Of a stretch of 64,000 bases of DNA, positions 9,942 through 28,372 are shown piece by piece (within the stretch, counting starts at the first letter, position 1; each line of letters opens with the position of its first letter). The stretch is from Spirochaetae bacterium HGW-Spirochaetae-1 (GTDB lineage Bacteria; Spirochaetota; UBA4802; UBA5550): NCBI GenBank assembly GCA_002839375.1, contig PGXY01000007.1:186001-250000 (forward strand), in the 5' to 3' direction. The position numbers and the translations under genes were made by a program. Under the pieces are notes generated by a model. The model saw only the letters and a list, made by a program, of their open reading frames with translations, had not been told where the DNA came from and ran no database searches.

Positions 9942-10307
9942 TTATTTTTTACCGGCGGGTTTCGGCTCAACGAACCTCACCACGTCGCCGGTAACCGTGA
10001 GCTTATCCACGCTGCCCAGGATAAAATAATAGGTCGTTTCGTACCAGCGCACATTGATGAGCGCATGGCCGCCCTTTTGCGCAACAGCCCGTTCAATGGC
10101 CTTATCGATATCGACACGCCTCACGGGAAAAACTCCCAATACGGACCAGACAGTATCACTACCCTCGGCCTTGCCCAGCATCTCCATCTCTTTGCCCTGC
10201 AGGGGCGTTGTGGAGGCCGTCATTCCCATGGGAGTAACGCATCCCGTGAGAACCGTCAGGGATAAGGACAGAATTGTCAGCATCAACTTGAATCGTGTAT
10301 ATTTCAT
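9942..10307 (-). CDS. Small lipoprotein, paralogue of the downstream gene
   Basis: 121 residues from the ATG at 10307, chosen over an ATG at 10349 because TGGAGGATATACG lies directly before it and because it gives a clean lipoprotein signal (LTGC, Cys23). The mature domain resembles that of 9559-9927. The genes form a pair read in the same direction as the TonB operon but separated from it by a long inverted repeat. Function unknown. Confidence 0.72.
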   Translation of the reverse strand: MKYTRFKLMLTILSLSLTVLTGCVTPMGMTASTTPLQGKEMEMLGKAEGSDTVWSVLGVFPVRRVDIDKAIERAVAQKGGHALINVRWYETTYYFILGSVDKLTVTGDVVRFVEPKPAGKK

Positions 10308-10366
10308 CGTATATCCTCCAGGTAAATTGTTTCTAAAAGTTAAAATCAATCAAACCAGAAACCCTT

Positions 10367-10482
10367 TGACCTCACCCCGCCTCTGGCGCGCCCTCTCCCA
10401 CGGGGAGATGGCTTTTCAACAATAACTTTTCGGTCAAACCTCCCCCTCTCCCCCTGGGAGAGGGGGCCGGGGGGTGAGGTCA
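10367..10482. repeat. Long imperfect inverted repeat (gacctcacccc...ggggtgaggtc)
   Basis: TGACCTCACCCCGCC... from 10367 to about 10408 pairs imperfectly with ...CCGGGGGGTGAGGTCA at 10443-10482; the inner parts are CCCTCTCCCACGGGGAGA and CTCCCCCTGGGAGAGGGGG. It ends one base before the receptor stop codon and could fold as a strong stem in RNA. It may separate transcription of the TonB operon from the two lipoprotein genes, or simply be a dispersed palindromic element. Confidence 0.7.
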
Positions 10483-10483
10483 A

Positions 10484-12895
10484 TCAGAACTTCACTTCCA
10501 CTCCAAAGTTCGGAATAATCGACAGCCCGCCGCTGGGCTTCTGCAGGCTCGGATTGCTTCCTTCGCTGTAGGGCTCATCATAATGCCATACATTCTCCTT
10601 CTGCACAAAATTATAGGCATTGATAACCTCGATATACCAGCTCACATGCCCCCACTCGTAATTGGTGCGGTATGTATAACGCAGGTCCAGCTGGTGGCTC
10701 AGGGGATAGTGTTTTGAGTTGATATCGGTACTGTACTCCGGTATATATCGACCGGATGTGACAGGCTCCTCATTGCCGCCAGTAATTTCCGTATACGGAA
10801 AAGATGAATAGAGCTGGAACTTGGCGCTGAAGGTGTGCCTTCCCCGGGTATATCCCGCCACGACTTTCACGGCATGTTCCTGCTCCCAGTCGGAACTGAT
10901 GAATGTGTCTCCTGTGGGATCACTCGTTGTCGGCAGGCCGGTTTTTATCTTCGACTGCGTCAGGGTGTAATTGATCCAGCCGAAAAAAGCGCTGCTTCCT
11001 TCGCGGCGATCCAGGCGCACCATGGCCTCGCCGCCGTAGGCCTTGAGTTTTCCGTTTGAGTAAAGAATATCGTTTTCATCTTTAATAAAAAAAGACCTGT
11101 CAAAAAAGTAATTATAAAACCCCTCGATCTTCACCGTCACTAGGTCGATCTTCTGTTCTATGCCGCCCGATCCGTGAAGTGCCCGTTCGGGAACAAGACG
11201 TCCCTTTTCACTGGCAAAGGATGGAGCCTGGTCAAAGAGGTAGGGATTTACCTGCTGGAAAGCCGAATAAGTTCCTCCCGCGACAGACAGGGTCGTGTCC
11301 GTGGGAAAATCATAGCTGAGAAGCCCCCGGTAATCAACAGTAAGTTTATTGGAGCGCATCAGGTAGTCGGTGCGTATACCGGGAACAAAAGTGAGTCCCG
11401 CGAAGAAAAACTTGTTTTCCAAGTAGGAACCCACGGTTACATTATGTGTTTTCTCTTTCAGATCAATGAGAATGAATTCATCCGGATTGTTAAAATTCGG
11501 CGGACCGGGCGGTACATAATCACCCCATAAAAAATCTTTTCCATTCTGTATGAAGTAATAATACTGGACATCAACCCCTCCCCGAAGGTCGGCGTGGTCC
11601 TTCCACCACTCAAAGTGAGCTTTATCCTTAAAACCGAAAATGTAAGGCCTGGAATTCAGGTGGTAATTCGTCAACCAGGGAACGGATGCTTCCACATTGA
11701 GGTAGCTGTACGTCTTGGCAAGGGAGGCGAAAACCAGGGCCCTGTTGCTGAACTTGCCCGATGGCTCATAGGTATAGTAAAGCCCCTGGGAATGGAACAT
11801 GGTGTCGCTTTCGAACTCCAGGTCCTCCAGGGCCGGGTCAATGGTATCGGGTGGCTTATGGTCCTGAAGGTATTTAATGTAGTCCCTGCTGCCGAAGAAA
11901 AGCAGGGTCAGGGAATGGTTGGCCGCCAAATAATATTTGAACTTGGCCTGGTAATCCCAGTATTCCGGCACCGAATCGAGCTTTTTACCCGTGATAAGCC
12001 AGTATACGGCAGGGACGAACAAAGAAAGATATGAAACCCTTCCCGACACGATGGCATATCCCTTTCCCGTGCCGTCCTGCGGCTTTTCGATCTCCATGCC
12101 GGGAATCTCGATACCCTTTTCATACCATGGAGCCGCGAAAAAGGCGTTGGCCGAGATGAGACCGATATCGCTGTAGCCGCTGAATTCCTCAACGGAATCA
12201 ATGGTATTGATCTGGATCACGGCGGCATCGGCGTTCCCGTATTGTGACGGTGATGACGAGGCATACAAGTCTATTTCCCTGATAAGGTTGCTGTTTATAA
12301 CGGAATGAATACCGCCGAAATGCTGAGGACTGAATAGGGGTATATCGTCAAGATAATAGCGGTTGGACAATGAACTGGCGCCCCTTATCACCAGGGGCCC
12401 GAAAATACCGCCATAACTCTTTATAACGCCGGGAAGGGCCGTGAGTGCCGTAACTGAATCGCCGAAACTGGCCGGGACGTCCTTTATCTCATCGCGCGTC
12501 ATGGTATACCGCGAAACCTTCTGGATATTCCGGTCGCCGAAGACCGTGAGGGTCCCGCCGGAAACGCGCACGGGCTTCAGCCAGAAATCCCTGGTCATTT
12601 TTCTGTCGATCTTCATGGTCAATTTCAGGTTTTGCAGCCCGTCGGAACTGACGACAACCGTGTATGTCCCGGCCGCGGGAACCACGGCCCGGAACAAGCC
12701 CTTTTGCGCGGTCCGGGCCCGCACACGCGCCTCAATGATGGTGATGCTGCCGAAATCAACGGGCCGGCGCGTCGTACTGTTATAGATTGTCCCCTCCACA
12801 ACAATCGCGCCCGCCTCCTGCGCCCTCATGGTTCCGGGCAGCAGTATGGCCCCTATCATCGCCGTTATAATCAGTATTCTATTCATGGTATCCAT
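10484..12895 (-). CDS. TonB-dependent outer membrane receptor
   Basis: 803 residues: signal peptide (about 1-25), a carboxypeptidase-regulatory-like Ig domain (about 30-110), a plug domain (about 125-240) with RDEIKDVPASFGDSV, VIRGASS and YYLDDIPLFSP, then a long beta-barrel ending in Phe as outer membrane barrels often do. It is the last gene of an exbB-exbD-exbD-tonB operon, 3 bp after tonB, so it is probably the dedicated client of that energiser. The ligand is not evident; the N-terminal Ig domain is typical of Bacteroidetes- and spirochaete-type receptors for organic ligands rather than classical siderophore receptors. Confidence 0.9.
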   Translation of the reverse strand: MDTMNRILIITAMIGAILLPGTMRAQEAGAIVVEGTIYNSTTRRPVDFGSITIIEARVRARTAQKGLFRAVVPAAGTYTVVVSSDGLQNLKLTMKIDRKMTRDFWLKPVRVSGGTLTVFGDRNIQKVSRYTMTRDEIKDVPASFGDSVTALTALPGVIKSYGGIFGPLVIRGASSLSNRYYLDDIPLFSPQHFGGIHSVINSNLIREIDLYASSSPSQYGNADAAVIQINTIDSVEEFSGYSDIGLISANAFFAAPWYEKGIEIPGMEIEKPQDGTGKGYAIVSGRVSYLSLFVPAVYWLITGKKLDSVPEYWDYQAKFKYYLAANHSLTLLFFGSRDYIKYLQDHKPPDTIDPALEDLEFESDTMFHSQGLYYTYEPSGKFSNRALVFASLAKTYSYLNVEASVPWLTNYHLNSRPYIFGFKDKAHFEWWKDHADLRGGVDVQYYYFIQNGKDFLWGDYVPPGPPNFNNPDEFILIDLKEKTHNVTVGSYLENKFFFAGLTFVPGIRTDYLMRSNKLTVDYRGLLSYDFPTDTTLSVAGGTYSAFQQVNPYLFDQAPSFASEKGRLVPERALHGSGGIEQKIDLVTVKIEGFYNYFFDRSFFIKDENDILYSNGKLKAYGGEAMVRLDRREGSSAFFGWINYTLTQSKIKTGLPTTSDPTGDTFISSDWEQEHAVKVVAGYTRGRHTFSAKFQLYSSFPYTEITGGNEEPVTSGRYIPEYSTDINSKHYPLSHQLDLRYTYRTNYEWGHVSWYIEVINAYNFVQKENVWHYDEPYSEGSNPSLQKPSGGLSIIPNFGVEVKF

Positions 12896-12898
12896 TGC

Positions 12899-13540
12899 CT
12901 ATCGGAGTACAAATTTATAGGTAAAATCGGCCTTTACGGGAATCTGTTTCCCCTGGTACACGGCGGGAGTGAACTGCTGGCCTACAAGGTTCCTTCTTGC
13001 CGCAGCCGCAAAGTCCTTCACTATGCGGGCATACTGTTCCGGCGGCAGCTCCTTGGTAAGTTTTATTCCCAGAATATTCACGCTCATCACTTTTCCCCCC
13101 GTAGAGATAAGAATCTGAAGGTTTGCCACGGCCTCGATATTCAGCTCACGGGCGCTGGAGGGGAAATAGTCCTTCAGCCTTCCCACGGGACGCGGCGGGG
13201 CAATGCTGGGATAAAAGGCGATGTCAACGGCCGTTTCCTCGTCAGCAACCCCGACGGCCCGGTCTACATTGCTGGTGTCATCGGCCGAAGCGTCGTTCTC
13301 CGTGGTTATCTCCCTGCTCACCTTCCGTACCGGTGCATAAGCCATATCGAGATCAACAAAGGTCAGCGTATCCACGGGCGACATGTCATTCTCCCTGAAA
13401 TCGAGGCTCGGTGTATAGAAAAGCGCATAGGAAACGAAAACAAGCGACAGCAAAAAGGAAAAGGCATAGGGATGCCGCCGCTCCCATTGGATAAAAGAAT
13501 CTACAAATGCCGTGTCGTCTCTTTTAAATACCTTTATCAC
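12899..13540 (-). CDS. tonB: TonB-like energy transducer
   Basis: 213 residues: a short cytoplasmic start, one membrane segment near 26-45 (FSFLLSLVFVSYALF), a periplasmic linker of only about 80 residues, and a C-terminal TonB-type domain (about 125-213) with NLQILISTGGKVMSV and QFTPAVYQGKQIPV. The linker is acidic and lacks the usual Pro-Glu/Pro-Lys repeats. The start is a GTG at 13540 directly after the exbD stop with GGGGAG upstream; a longer reading from 13579 would overlap exbD and has no better signal. It would carry proton-motive energy from ExbB/ExbD to the receptor encoded next. Confidence 0.83.
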   Translation of the reverse strand: MIKVFKRDDTAFVDSFIQWERRHPYAFSFLLSLVFVSYALFYTPSLDFRENDMSPVDTLTFVDLDMAYAPVRKVSREITTENDASADDTSNVDRAVGVADEETAVDIAFYPSIAPPRPVGRLKDYFPSSARELNIEAVANLQILISTGGKVMSVNILGIKLTKELPPEQYARIVKDFAAAARRNLVGQQFTPAVYQGKQIPVKADFTYKFVLR

Positions 13541-13541
13541 G

Positions 13542-13946
13542 TTACTTCTCCCCCTTCCGGGGCTGGGCCATAAATACAATATTGAGAAAATCCTGGGCCT
13601 TCAGGACTTCCAGTACCGGCGAGACAATGGTATAGTCAAGATCCCGGTCGGCGGTGATGGCCACGGCCCTGTCCTTTTCACCCTGCCGGTTTGCCAGGGC
13701 ATCGCCGAGCTGCTGCAGGGACATGCGTTTCCCGTCGAAAAAATATTCTCCCGACCTTGATATGGTTACATACAGCGAGTCCTGTTCCGTGGCCGCGGTC
13801 TTGCCCACGGGGAGATCAACCTCAACGCCCTTGGGAGGTTCCGTCGTTGTCGTGGCCATAAAAAATATCAGGAGGAGCATGGCCATATCGGCCATGGCCG
13901 ATCCGAAAGAAACAAATTTCAGTTTTTTCAGAAAGCTGCCCGACAT
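13542..13946 (-). CDS. exbD: ExbD/TolR-type protein (second copy)
   Basis: 134 residues. One membrane segment near 20-33 carries the conserved Asp (MADMAMLLLIFF), followed by a periplasmic TolR-like domain (about 45-130). It forms proton channels with ExbB. It directly follows the first exbD copy with a 1-bp gap, so it may form a heteromeric ExbD1/ExbD2 complex, as described for other systems with paired exbD genes. Confidence 0.88.
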   Translation of the reverse strand: MSGSFLKKLKFVSFGSAMADMAMLLLIFFMATTTTEPPKGVEVDLPVGKTAATEQDSLYVTISRSGEYFFDGKRMSLQQLGDALANRQGEKDRAVAITADRDLDYTIVSPVLEVLKAQDFLNIVFMAQPRKGEK

Positions 13947-13947
13947 G

Positions 13948-14394
13948 TCACTTCCCTCCCTTATCTTCCTTCAATGAAAAGCGCTGCAGTCCCGATTCCC
14001 TGGCAACGCTCAGGGTGTCCACGAGACGATGATATTTTACGGAATCCCCCATCCGCACTACCATGACGCCGTCGGGATAGGCCCGGCGGTGTTTCATGAT
14101 CAATGCCTTAAAATTTTTCCTGTCCAAAACTGCGTTATCGACCAGGAACCCGTTGTTCTCAGGCCGCACCTCCACTATCTTCGCCGCATCCATCTTCACC
14201 GATCCCGCGTTTTTCGCCGGCAGCGTCATGAATATGCCCTGCCTGATGACGAATGAACCGGTGACGATGAAAAAAATCAAGAGAAGAAAAGACATATCGG
14301 CGATGGAGGTGGAATCAAAGCTCCTTTCCTCAGGCCGGGGCCTCCTGACCTCCCGTCTTCTCAGTATCTTGTAAATTATTGCATTGTCGTTCAT
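13948..14394 (-). CDS. exbD: ExbD/TolR-type protein (first copy)
   Basis: 148 residues from the ATG at 14394, which lies one base after the exbB stop codon; a longer frame from 14442 would overlap exbB heavily. A basic N-terminus (KILRRREVRRPRP) is followed by a membrane segment with the channel Asp (IADMSFLLLIFF) near 33-50 and a periplasmic domain. The lack of a separate ribosome site points to translational coupling with exbB. Confidence 0.88.
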   Translation of the reverse strand: MNDNAIIYKILRRREVRRPRPEERSFDSTSIADMSFLLLIFFIVTGSFVIRQGIFMTLPAKNAGSVKMDAAKIVEVRPENNGFLVDNAVLDRKNFKALIMKHRRAYPDGVMVVRMGDSVKYHRLVDTLSVARESGLQRFSLKEDKGGK

Positions 14395-14395
14395 G

Positions 14396-15178
14396 CTATA
14401 TGTCCCGGCATATCCTGTCGGAAAGGCGCGGCAGCTTTTCACATGCGGCGCCGATGATTTCCTCGGCCCTGGCCGTTCTGTTCTGCAGTATGTGCATAAA
14501 CAGATAATAAAAGCCCAGGGTCGGAGCCGCCACGATAAGGCCTCCCGCCGTGGTGATCAGGGCCACCTGTATACCCACGGCAACAACCTTGGCATTGACT
14601 GTGGCAGCAGCGGCTATGGATGCGAAGGCCTGGATCATGCCGATAACTGTTCCGAGAAAGCCAAATATGGGGGCAAGGTTCCCGATACCGGAAAGAAGGG
14701 CCAGGCCCTTTTCAACGCCGTGAGTATATATCTGAAAATACGACCGGAGATCGTCCTCCAGGTCCTCGCGATATTGCGCTTTCGAATCCTTCGCGGCTTC
14801 GGCCAGAACGCTGTCGAGCTGATCGTATTTCCACACACGGTTTCTGGTAAAAAAAATCAGGCGCTCGATGATGATGGTGAGGGAGCCGATTCCCAGGAGT
14901 ACCAGCAATATCATGAGGGGGCCGCCCTGCTTCACCGTGGTAAAAAGACTATTTCCCTGCACGAGGGCCGATTCATCATTATTCAATTCAGCCCCATTCA
15001 TTGAATTGTCTTCATTTACTACCGTATCAACCGTGTCTCCCGTTTCTATTGCCGCAGCAACGGGCGTTTTAGCCGGATCAGATACCTGTGCCATAACCGG
15101 TTTTCCCAATCCCATAATCGTGGAAAAAAGTAGTACTGAAGAAAAAATAATCCTGGAAAGCGATAATCGCATATTCAT
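14396..15178 (-). CDS. exbB: ExbB/TolQ/MotA-family proton channel protein
   Basis: 260 residues. A signal-like N-terminus (about 1-30) leads to a polar periplasmic extension, then the MotA/TolQ/ExbB domain with membrane segments near 78-97, 165-190 and 205-235, including GFLGTVIGMIQAF and TTAGGLIVAAPTL. First gene of the five-gene TonB operon; AGAGG precedes the ATG at a good distance. The periplasmic extension is found in ExbB forms of several Gram-negative groups. The promoter should lie in the AT-rich 15179-15300. Confidence 0.9.
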   Translation of the reverse strand: MNMRLSLSRIIFSSVLLFSTIMGLGKPVMAQVSDPAKTPVAAAIETGDTVDTVVNEDNSMNGAELNNDESALVQGNSLFTTVKQGGPLMILLVLLGIGSLTIIIERLIFFTRNRVWKYDQLDSVLAEAAKDSKAQYREDLEDDLRSYFQIYTHGVEKGLALLSGIGNLAPIFGFLGTVIGMIQAFASIAAAATVNAKVVAVGIQVALITTAGGLIVAAPTLGFYYLFMHILQNRTARAEEIIGAACEKLPRLSDRICRDI

Positions 15179-24485: not shown

Positions 24486-24511
24486 CATAGTTTCACATGG
24501 GGGAAAACATA

Positions 24512-25918
24512 ATGATCATCAGGGAAAAAGAAACCGGTTCCATTAGTCATGGAGAAAAAAACCGCATCGTCCAGACCTTTTCGCGGCATATTAACAGCGG
24601 ACAGGTCAAATACCTGAAGGCGGGACATCTCGATGTGCTCGAAACGGAACGACGGTCCGTGCGCTTCGTTGATCCCGTCAGCGGGAAAGTCATGATAGAC
24701 TGCTTCACATCGGCAGGATGTTTCAATGTGGGGAGAAGCAATCCCGTCATAATCAGGGCCATGGAAGAAGCGCTGGAAACCCTGGACATGGGAACATCAA
24801 CACTTATCTCAACTCACAAGGTGGCCCTGGCAGAGCGGCTCGCGGCCCTTGGTCCCGGCGACCTGAACAATGTTCTGTTTGCTTCGGGCGGCGGTGATGC
24901 CATAGATTGCGCCTTAAAGCTGGCCCGGGGCTCAACGGGACGCTCCCACATAATTTCAACGGTAAAGGCCTATCACGGGCACACAGGCTTCGCCCTTTCG
25001 GCAAACGGCAAGGAGCATTACCGGAAATATTTCGAGCCCCTCATGCCCCGGTTTTCCTTTGTCCCATTCAACGACCTGGAGGCGGTACGGGACGCAATAA
25101 CCAATGACACGGCAGCCATAATTGTTGAGCCCGTACAGGGGGAGGCGGGCATTTTCGTAGCCGGCAATGAATACCTCAGGGGCCTCCGCCGTGTCTGCGA
25201 CGAAAAGAATATCATCCTCATCTTCGACGAAGTCCAGACCGGTTTCGGCAGGACCGGCAAATTTTTCGCCTGCGAACATTCCGGCGTGGTCCCTGATATA
25301 CTGGCCATGGCAAAATCCATCGGCGGGGGTATGTTTCCCAACGGTGCCGTCCTGTATCGTGATAACGGCCTCCTTACGGGCTTTGTCTGCCACAATCCCG
25401 GTTTCCACCCTACCTATACGGGAGGCTCCGACCTGGGCTGCCATATTTCGCTCAGGGTCATTGATTACATCATGGAAAACAATCTCCTTGAAAGGGCAAG
25501 CCGTAACGGCAAGAAACTGAAAGAAGCTCTGGAGCAACTGCGCCGCGAGAATCCAAAAATCATCCGGGAGGTACGCGGTATCGGCATGATGGTTGGGATC
25601 GAATACATCCACGAGTTCCTGGGACCCATGATGTCCGATGCCCTGGCAAAGAACGGCGTTTTTGCGGCATACTCGGGCAATGCCCCGCAGGTAATGCGCT
25701 TCATGCTCCCCATCGCCGCCGCCGATGAGGATGTGGACGAGGTAATCGGGGCCATAGGCAAGGCAGTGGAGTCAATGAAAACACTGCTGCCCATTGCCCT
25801 CCCGGCGGCAAAGATTCCGGGAGTTCTGAAGCTACTCAACAATGAAAGAGTCCAGACCGTTGTATTCAACTGGATACGGTCACTGGAGGATTTTTTCAGC
25901 GGTGTTAACAGGAAATAA
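24512..25918 (+). CDS. Class III aminotransferase, PLP lysine present
   Basis: 468 residues. PLP-binding features of fold type I subgroup II are present: GGGDAID, KAYHGHTGF, FDEVQTGFGRTG and the Schiff-base Lys268 in MAKSIGGG. A roughly 45-residue C-terminal extension follows the usual domain. The start at 24512 is preferred over 24497 because GGGGGAAA lies just before it. It is the first gene of a three-gene operon with a lysine-less paralogue and a zinc-type dehydrogenase. The substrate (an amine, amino acid or omega-amino acid) cannot be told from the sequence. Confidence 0.88.
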   Translation: MIIREKETGSISHGEKNRIVQTFSRHINSGQVKYLKAGHLDVLETERRSVRFVDPVSGKVMIDCFTSAGCFNVGRSNPVIIRAMEEALETLDMGTSTLISTHKVALAERLAALGPGDLNNVLFASGGGDAIDCALKLARGSTGRSHIISTVKAYHGHTGFALSANGKEHYRKYFEPLMPRFSFVPFNDLEAVRDAITNDTAAIIVEPVQGEAGIFVAGNEYLRGLRRVCDEKNIILIFDEVQTGFGRTGKFFACEHSGVVPDILAMAKSIGGGMFPNGAVLYRDNGLLTGFVCHNPGFHPTYTGGSDLGCHISLRVIDYIMENNLLERASRNGKKLKEALEQLRRENPKIIREVRGIGMMVGIEYIHEFLGPMMSDALAKNGVFAAYSGNAPQVMRFMLPIAAADEDVDEVIGAIGKAVESMKTLLPIALPAAKIPGVLKLLNNERVQTVVFNWIRSLEDFFSGVNRK

Positions 25919-25929
25919 AGGAGACTGTC

Positions 25930-27159
25930 ATGAACCTGAACCACGATACAGAGCAAATTCTTAATAAATATGAAACATACTTTTCTTCTTCGCAGCGCGC
26001 GGTACTGGAAAGCCGCGGACATGCCATTGTTGAAGACCGCCGCGAAGGGGATTACATTTACGACCTCAACGGTAAAAAATATATCGATTGCATATCATCC
26101 CTATCCATCCACAACCTGGGAAGGCGGCCGTCGGCAGTCGTTGATGAACTGCGGAAAGCCATACACGATACGGACCAGGGAAATTTTCCCATGATATCAA
26201 AGGAAAAGGCCGCCCTGGCGGAAAAAATATCCCGCTTCGTACCGGGAAAACTGGAATGCACCGTGTTTAGCGTAATCCGCGGCGAGAGCATTGATTTCGC
26301 CTGCAAGCTGGCACGGGGATTCACAGGCAGACAGGAATTTCTCACCGTGGACGGATCATGGTTCGGCCAGACCGGTTTCGCCCTGAGCCTTTCGGACAGG
26401 AAGGACAGGGAATTCTACGGTCCACTCATTCCCGGAATCAGGCAGTTGCCTTTCGGGGACATTGAATCAGCCCGGAAAATGATCACGCGAAAAACAGCGG
26501 CGGTATTCATCGAGCCGGTCCAGGCCGAAAACAACTGCCGACAGGCCGGCAAAGAATATCTTCAGGTCCTGAGGAGCCTGTGCACAAAGAAGGGAGCCGT
26601 ACTGGTATTCGATGAAACACAGAGCGGCATGGGACGCACGGGAAATAAATTCGCCTTTGAGGAAAGCGGCGTCATACCCGACGTGCTGGTCATCGGTGAA
26701 TCCCTGGGCGCCGGCGTATTTCCCATAGCGGCCACGGTATTCACGCAGCGGCTGAACAAATTCATGAACGCCCATCCCATGATCCACCTCTCAACATTCG
26801 GAGGATCGGATATAGGCTGCCGTGTCGCCTCGAAAGCACTGGACGAATATGACCGGCTGAAGCCCTGGGACAATGCCGCCGGTAACGGAAAGATGCTAAG
26901 GGACGGCCTTGAATCTTTGAAAAATTCATTTCCCGGCAAGATAAAGTCCCTCGATGGAAGGGGTCTCCTCCTGTCCATGGATTTCGGCACGTCCGAAAAA
27001 GCCCTGGCGTTCTGCAGGGCCGCCGCTGACAGGGGTCTCCTGGTTTGCCCCGGTGACGTGGCCCGCAGTTCCATTATTTTCAGGCCGGGGCTGCTTATCG
27101 GCAATACAACTATTACGGAAATACTCCAGGCCGTCTCGGACGCACTGAAGTCCATATAA
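25930..27159 (+). CDS. Class III aminotransferase paralogue lacking the PLP lysine
   Basis: 409 residues, clearly homologous to the preceding gene product over its whole length. The Schiff-base lysine is replaced by Glu257 (VIGESLGAGVFP against MAKSIGGGMFP; codon GAA at 26698). The PLP-stacking AYHG is changed to SWFG and the phosphate-loop GGGDAID to RGESID, while FDETQSGMGRTG keeps the Asp and Gln. Normal transamination should be impossible. It may be a non-catalytic partner of the first aminotransferase, comparable to the LCB1/LCB2 arrangement of serine palmitoyltransferase, or catalyse something else. The frame is intact with AAGGAG at its start, so it is not a decayed gene. Confidence 0.85.
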   Translation: MNLNHDTEQILNKYETYFSSSQRAVLESRGHAIVEDRREGDYIYDLNGKKYIDCISSLSIHNLGRRPSAVVDELRKAIHDTDQGNFPMISKEKAALAEKISRFVPGKLECTVFSVIRGESIDFACKLARGFTGRQEFLTVDGSWFGQTGFALSLSDRKDREFYGPLIPGIRQLPFGDIESARKMITRKTAAVFIEPVQAENNCRQAGKEYLQVLRSLCTKKGAVLVFDETQSGMGRTGNKFAFEESGVIPDVLVIGESLGAGVFPIAATVFTQRLNKFMNAHPMIHLSTFGGSDIGCRVASKALDEYDRLKPWDNAAGNGKMLRDGLESLKNSFPGKIKSLDGRGLLLSMDFGTSEKALAFCRAAADRGLLVCPGDVARSSIIFRPGLLIGNTTITEILQAVSDALKSI

Positions 27160-27169
27160 GAGGTGTGTG

Positions 27170-28372
27170 ATGAAAGGACTCTATTTTGAAGGAACGGTCC
27201 CCCGCGTTCTGGCATATCTTATCGCTTCACGGTTCAGCCGTTATGCCGGCATATCACCCTTTTCGCCAACTACATATGGCGAAGTGCCGGAACCGGAGAT
27301 ACCCGACGACAACTGGCTCAAAATAAAAAACGAGAGCTGCGGACTCTGCGGCACCGACATGCATTTCATGTTTTTTGATCTCAACACAAAGTCCTTCTCG
27401 GCAGCCACGCCGGGAATCAAAAGAAAATTCCTTGGGCACGAACTGCTGGGACGTGTCGTAGAAACGGGAAACAATGTCTCGAATCTGAAAAAAGGCGATC
27501 GTGTAACCATGCGCATTGACTGGCCCTCATGTTTCCAGATGGAGATTGATCCCCCTTGCCTGCAATGCAGAAAAGGGAGCTACATGCTCTGCGAAAACCT
27601 GGGTAAAAAGGAAATGCCCGTAAGGGATATGGGTGGCGGTTTTTCACCATACATGATCATGCATAAAACACAGCCGTACCGCATTCCCGACTCCTTCACT
27701 GATGATGAGGCGCTGCTCCTGGAGCCCACGGCCTGCGCCGTCCACGGCGTTCACAAACACATTCCGGAAAAAGGCGACCGGGTGCTGGTCATCGGCTGCG
27801 GCACCATCGGCCTCCTTACCATCGCCGTGGCCAAAGCCCTGCAGCCCCGGGCCGAGATAATCGCCCTTGACCGCCTGTCCCACCAGCTGGAAATGGCCGT
27901 AAAGATGGGGGCGCACGGGACTGTTACGGCGGGAAAGGAGACCTGCCATGACCTGGCCCGCCTTTCCGGCGCGAAATACCACAGCGGACCCTTCGGCAAT
28001 GAAATCATGCTGGGAGGATTTGATGTAATCTATGACTGCGTGGGAAGCAACAATACTCTGCAGAACGCCCTCCGATGGGTCAGGGGAAACGGCCATGTGG
28101 TGCTCATCGGCATCAATTTCAATCCCGGCAGCATCGACTACAGTCCGGTATGGAACCAGGAAATCAGGCTCACGGGTATCAACTGCCACGCCGGGGAAAC
28201 TGGCAGCCTGACATCCTTTGACATTGCCGCTGATCTCATCACAAAAAAGAAAATCAGACTCGACGGTATGATCACGCACCGCTTCCCCATGGAAAACTAC
28301 CGTGAAGCGGCCCGTGCCTTCCTGGACAAAGGAAAATCCAGGGCCATAAAGATTGTACTGGATCATACGTGA
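27170..28372 (+). CDS. Zinc-type medium-chain dehydrogenase
   Basis: 400 residues. Catalytic-zinc ligands are visible in CGLCGTD (about 50-56), GHE (about 89-91) and the LEPTACA segment (about 184-190). The nucleotide-binding GCGTIG follows near 210. The structural-zinc lobe is odd: CLQCRKGSYMLC has three Cys, with a fourth possible only further upstream in WPSCF. Start ATG at 27170 is preceded by AGAGGTG; a GTG at 27167 is also in frame. Third gene of the aminotransferase operon, 10 bp after the second, so it probably oxidises or reduces an alcohol/aldehyde in the same pathway. Confidence 0.87.
   Translation: MKGLYFEGTVPRVLAYLIASRFSRYAGISPFSPTTYGEVPEPEIPDDNWLKIKNESCGLCGTDMHFMFFDLNTKSFSAATPGIKRKFLGHELLGRVVETGNNVSNLKKGDRVTMRIDWPSCFQMEIDPPCLQCRKGSYMLCENLGKKEMPVRDMGGGFSPYMIMHKTQPYRIPDSFTDDEALLLEPTACAVHGVHKHIPEKGDRVLVIGCGTIGLLTIAVAKALQPRAEIIALDRLSHQLEMAVKMGAHGTVTAGKETCHDLARLSGAKYHSGPFGNEIMLGGFDVIYDCVGSNNTLQNALRWVRGNGHVVLIGINFNPGSIDYSPVWNQEIRLTGINCHAGETGSLTSFDIAADLITKKKIRLDGMITHRFPMENYREAARAFLDKGKSRAIKIVLDHT

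Follow-up and report, generated by a model that had tools for sequence, protein, structure and literature searches.

Why should a bacterium keep, directly behind a gene for a class III aminotransferase, a second gene of the same fold that lacks the lysine on which pyridoxal phosphate (PLP) chemistry depends? We met this situation in a stretch of 64,000 nucleotides of the genome of Spirochaetae bacterium HGW-Spirochaetae-1, referred to here as the window. Genes A and B follow each other on the forward strand at a distance of 11 bp. Both frames are open, an AGGAG motif precedes the ATG of gene B, and a zinc dehydrogenase (gene C) begins about 10 bp after gene B. The features used in the following are:

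24497 to 25918, + strand: gene A, class III aminotransferase-fold subunit bearing the PLP lysine (open reading frame, translation, PF00202)
24497 or, more likely, 24512, + strand: start codon ATG of gene A, with a G-rich site just upstream of 24512
25313 to 25315, + strand: codon AAA of the PLP lysine of gene A (Lys273 counted from 24497, Lys268 from 24512), Lys in 28 of 28 A proteins
25415 to 25417, + strand: Tyr307 codon of gene A, where YgjG has Thr332* (contact to the PLP phosphate in trans), Thr in 0 of 28 A proteins
25930 to 27159, + strand: gene B, lysine-less class III aminotransferase-fold subunit of 409 amino acids, from ATG 25930 to TAA 27159
26278 to 26280, + strand: Arg117 codon of gene B, in place of the phosphate-loop Gly (YgjG Gly150), Arg in 29 of 29 B proteins
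26698 to 26700, + strand: Glu257 codon GAA of gene B, at the position of the PLP lysine (YgjG Lys300), Glu in 29 of 29 B proteins
26794 to 26796, + strand: Thr289 codon of gene B, equivalent of YgjG Thr332*, Thr in 29 of 29 B proteins
27170 to 28372, + strand: gene C, zinc-dependent dehydrogenase (threonine-3-dehydrogenase type), adjoining 4 of 29 loci as an optional neighbour

An initial annotation, made from the nucleotide sequence, had described two class III aminotransferases back to back, the first with its PLP lysine (Lys268) and the second with Glu257, codon GAA at 26698, in an intact frame behind a good ribosome site. Coordinates, frames and PF00202 matches agree with this description, as do the lysine motifs, ILAMAKSIGGG in gene A and VLVIGESLGAG in gene B. 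The number Lys268 fits the likelier of the two gene A starts, the one preceded by the G-rich site. Two further changes reported for gene B are also correct, namely AYHG to SWFG and GGGDAID to RGESID.

Both proteins clearly exceed the cut-off of the Pfam family PF00202 (286.9 bits for gene A and 220.1 bits for gene B against 30.5). No named NCBIfam aminotransferase was reached above its equivalog or subfamily cut-off; the best match, PRK11522, scores 335 bits with A and 244 bits with B where 612 bits are demanded. Neither protein belongs to the alpha-oxoamine synthases, the family of serine palmitoyltransferase (SPT), as their best NCBIfam and Pfam matches are class III aminotransferases. A daptide-like pathway, which combines an alcohol dehydrogenase of the threonine dehydrogenase type with an aminotransferase, was considered and set aside: gene B scores 145 bits against the daptide aminotransferase cut-off of 450. 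The AlphaFold2 monomer of gene B (pLDDT 91.2, pTM 0.91) has the E. coli putrescine aminotransferase YgjG (4uox) as its closest solved structure in Foldseek, with a TM-score of 0.95 at 28% identity. According to this model, gene B keeps the full class III aminotransferase fold; by its residues, it appears to be a homologue in fold and not a functional aminotransferase by itself.

A scan of species genomes yielded eight relatives of gene B in Spirochaetes, deltaproteobacterial, proteobacterial and Myxococcota assemblies, and searches of whole genomes added further ones from the order of the window, from Desulfobacterota and from Myxococcota. The final set comprises 29 B proteins from Spirochaetota, Desulfobacterota and Myxococcota. 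Many of them are only 45–63% identical to the B protein of the window, and all carry Glu in the lysine column. The 46 genomes of the window's order contain 15 A and 15 B genes, each adjacent to its mate, while weaker matches of the A profile in this order are solo paralogues. Within 395 Desulfobacterota genomes, we found 13 A and 13 B genes, one each in the same 13 genomes. The only B gene without a visible A gene (locus L007) starts about 200 bases from the end of its contig. The expectation that B relatives always lie beside the intact paralogue thus held at every testable locus, and this strict pairing supports the earlier proposal of a lysine-less subunit kept beside an active one in the manner of LCB1/LCB2. 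One genome (G042) harbours two separate A-B pairs, on its contigs C16 and C17 (L039 and L040).

In the tree, the A and the B proteins form one clade each (support 100/100). The distance matrices of A and B mirror each other with a correlation of 0.86, compared to at most 0.20 in 2000 permutations, which together with the fully supported clades implies that A and B have travelled together. Gene B is under purifying selection: seven pairs of B genes have dS below 1, and dN/dS amounts to 0.12–0.16 in six of them and to 0.28 in the seventh.

The active site of class III aminotransferases is located at the subunit interface, so that each site draws on residues of two chains. We compared 28 A proteins, 29 B proteins and 16 close solo paralogues column by column, and mapped the positions of YgjG onto gene B by pairwise alignment. 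In YgjG, Gly150 and Thr151 from one chain hold the PLP phosphate together with Thr332* from the other. Lys300 is the Schiff-base residue, Asp271 the ligand of the pyridine nitrogen and Phe180 the aromatic residue stacked on the ring; the substrate pair Glu235-Arg413 of ornithine aminotransferase has its counterparts in Glu243 and Arg426 (PMC4244111). The alignment places Glu257 of gene B at Lys300, Thr289 at Thr332, Arg117 at Gly150 and Gly118 at Thr151.

The A proteins and the solo paralogues share an intact set of cis residues: Lys at the Schiff-base position, Tyr as the stacking aromatic and Gly in the phosphate loop are found in 28 of 28 and in 16 of 16 sequences, respectively. The substrate Arg and the pyridine-binding Asp are likewise invariant in all 28 A proteins. 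In the B proteins, Glu replaces the lysine and Arg the phosphate-loop Gly (each 29 of 29), the stacking position is taken by Trp, Cys, Tyr, Ser or Leu, and the substrate Arg occurs in none. The reverse holds for the Thr that acts in trans, which is present in every B protein (29/29) and every solo paralogue (16/16) and in no A protein (0/28). There, the column holds His (9), Tyr (5), Phe (4), Ser (4), Ile (2), Leu (2), Cys (1) or Val (1). Among the 33 columns that are invariant and identical in solo paralogues and B proteins, the trans Thr is the one most degraded in A, with an entropy of 2.66 bits. Conversely, among the 44 columns invariant and identical in solo paralogues and A proteins, B shows fixed replacements at PLP contacts (Glu for Lys, Arg for Gly) and Cys instead of Ile at position 203, and the stacking Tyr is lost. 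The pocket of B is not wholly ruined, since the pyridine-binding Asp228 and Glu200 are retained. The counts should not be read as so many separate events, since the members of a clade probably inherited its loss from a single change on the stem.

The genome of the window itself encodes a solo paralogue (G000:C4:433393-434604, L031) with both the lysine and the trans Thr. It carries ETIPATMGI in place of EPVQGEGGI and shares its clade with several relatives. An intact contrast to the A-B pairs is provided by a different tandem of two solo-type class III aminotransferases in Desulfobacterota (L112-L115): both genes have the lysine, and at the trans position one has Thr, the other Ser.

The distribution of the trans Thr, present in B and solo proteins and absent from A, suggests that one site is divided between the two proteins, with its cis half on A and its trans half on B. 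Each protein has lost what its own homodimer would need and kept what its partner needs. Such a complementary loss is to be expected of an obligate heterodimer with one composite site, and not of a merely regulatory partner. Our main reading, to which we assign a probability of roughly 0.8, is therefore an obligate A-B heterodimer or some multiple of it, in which each pair has a single composite active site in the fashion of LCB2/LCB1. A would contribute the Schiff-base lysine, the PLP-stacking Tyr, the pyridine-binding Asp and the Arg for the substrate carboxylate. B would contribute the trans loop, H-L-S/C-T-F-G-G, whose Thr (Thr289 in the window) is expected to reach into the partner's site and hold the PLP phosphate there. 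The pocket of B itself would be dead as an aminotransferase site, with its lysine changed to Glu, its phosphate-loop Gly to Arg, and the stacking Tyr and the substrate Arg lost; A, in return, would have dropped the loop that serves this pocket. Our observations cover the residues, the strict pairing and joint inheritance of A and B, and the purifying selection on B; we infer the complex as such, its single site and a continued transamination by A-B. An A homodimer might still bind PLP, because the phosphate has several contacts, of which the trans Thr is only one, and the Ser found at this position in 4 of 28 A proteins could partly substitute for Thr.

The monomer model of gene B has its lowest confidence at residues 85-87 and at about 281-290. 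These stretches include the trans loop, which should touch the partner. Residues 82-90 (window 26173-26199) comprise a DQGNF segment and Ser90, which are invariant in 15 aligned B sequences; together with the poor order of residues 85-87, this suggests a loop in need of a partner or ligand. A fused-chain AlphaFold2 prediction of the A-B pair of locus L101, with the in-frame TAA read as Gly, reached only pLDDT 77 and pTM 0.67 on a shallow alignment. Gene A ends in a conserved, hydrophobic extension of about 45 residues (window 25775-25915; MKTLLPIALPAAKIPGVLKLLNNERVQTVVFNWIRSLEDFF...), which is present in all A proteins and absent from the solo paralogues. It is possibly a membrane or partner contact.

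Several other explanations for a lysine-less B gene have to be weighed. That B is a decaying duplicate, or its missing lysine a sequencing or assembly error, is hardly conceivable: the missing lysine is all that speaks for it, and it is refuted by Glu in 29 of 29 sequences from many separate assemblies, by open frames, by dN/dS values well below 1 and by the strict pairing. As the Glu persists despite the divergence of the B proteins and under low dN/dS, gene B is neither error nor relic; a pseudogene was accordingly dismissed, and so was a sequencing error at the Glu257 codon, a possibility raised along with the initial annotation. Strict linkage and purifying selection would fit any partner role, among them that of a regulatory or chaperone-like pseudoenzyme, which binds A or a working A homodimer and does not complete its site. 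The changes in the B pocket (Arg117, Glu257, Cys203) are fixed rather than random, as they might be in an effector site. This role would, however, leave unexplained why A has lost exactly the homodimer-site residue that is invariant in B, and we consider it unlikely.

Very unlikely, in our judgement, is a B protein that is itself catalytic in a new way, with pyridoxamine phosphate (PMP) bound without a lysine. There is precedent for lysine-less enzymes of the aminotransferase fold in the sugar 3-dehydratases ColD/E1, which carry His for Lys and are catalytic (PMC8987622). B shares with them the fold and the absence of the PLP lysine, it keeps Asp228, and its Glu257, Arg117 and Cys203 are invariant. 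However, ColD/E1 are catalytic dimers that bind PMP and have His, whereas B has Glu throughout (29/29) and its other PLP contacts are gone: the stacking aromatic and the phosphate-loop Gly are lost in B, and A offers no Thr in trans. With these contacts missing, phosphate binding in the B pocket is doubtful. A related idea is compatible with the composite site: besides completing the site of A, the vacated pocket of B may have been rebuilt around Glu257, Arg117 and Cys203 for another ligand or a second reaction. We see a small chance for this; if true, the A-B pair would be an aminotransferase with a second, non-PLP site.

The arrangement favoured here, a heterodimer with one composite site, has its closest known counterpart in serine palmitoyltransferase. 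SPT1/SPT2 (LCB1/LCB2) are paralogues of which one lacks the lysine; both are needed, and they form one site at their interface (PMC6148460). Like them, A and B are fold type I proteins; one subunit has the PLP lysine, its dedicated paralogue lacks it, and the two always occur together. Unlike them, A and B are bacterial class III aminotransferase homologues encoded by adjacent genes, whereas SPT is an alpha-oxoamine synthase whose heterodimer is eukaryotic, the bacterial SPT described in the same paper being a homodimer (PMC6148460). Since SPT belongs to another family, A and B would work like SPT but are not SPT, and the arrangement would have been reached independently in class III aminotransferases. 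In YgjG, a class III enzyme, one chain contains both half-sites, whereas A and B would have one half each.

As to the reaction, we surveyed the neighbourhoods of the 29 A/B loci. A TetR regulator adjoins 16 of them (in one case only 25% identical to the reference), an alanine dehydrogenase 10, an Amidohydro_3 protein 5 and an Amidohydro_2 protein 3. Three of the alanine dehydrogenases were scanned with TIGR00518 and score 520-524 bits at a cut-off of 392. The zinc dehydrogenase adjoins just four loci, those of the window, L003, L007 and L008, and has close homologues in genomes without A/B. The initial annotation had proposed a heteromeric aminotransferase with a dedicated dehydrogenase. Its first half is strengthened by the loss in A of the trans Thr that B has kept; the second half, a zinc dehydrogenase dedicated to the pair, had to be given up as a general feature. 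At this minority of loci, the reaction is probably coupled to an alcohol or carbonyl dehydrogenase.

In Bilophila wadsworthia, the gene of a taurine:pyruvate aminotransferase (Tpa) lies in a cluster with those of an alanine dehydrogenase, by which the amino-group acceptor is regenerated, and of a reductase for the aldehyde product (PMC6386719). The alanine dehydrogenase beside 10 of 29 A-B pairs recalls this module, although Tpa is one ordinary aminotransferase and not a two-gene system. By analogy, this suggests an alanine/pyruvate-coupled conversion of an amine or carbonyl compound. It need not hold for the window, in whose genome no alanine dehydrogenase scored above the family cut-off. At locus L095, a run of metabolic genes follows directly after A-B (10149-15033). 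It encodes an Amidohydro_2-like protein, a saccharopine-dehydrogenase-like protein, an Amidohydro_3 protein and a probable short-chain dehydrogenase, which was assigned from the start of its sequence only, and may hint at a pathway.

Aminotransferases are commonly regarded as homodimers or homo-oligomers. A review of their evolution from 2022 presents fold type I enzymes as homodimers and homotetramers, and states that little is known as to whether different aminotransferases assemble into heteromultimers (PMC9309667). In the literature searched, which was restricted to open-licence papers, we found no heterodimeric or lysine-less class III aminotransferase. A mixed pair with a single working site, known from serine palmitoyltransferase, is not described for an aminotransferase in these papers. 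For genome annotation, the B genes carry a warning, as any profile search would label them functional aminotransferases. From a biological point of view, the A/B family would give a clear bacterial case of a heteromultimer, in which the half-sites are cleanly split between paralogues while intact solo relatives are present. The proteins should be easy to express, and with split half-sites and intact solo relatives at hand, it would become directly testable whether two duplicates can be locked into an obligate heterodimer by losses that complement each other.
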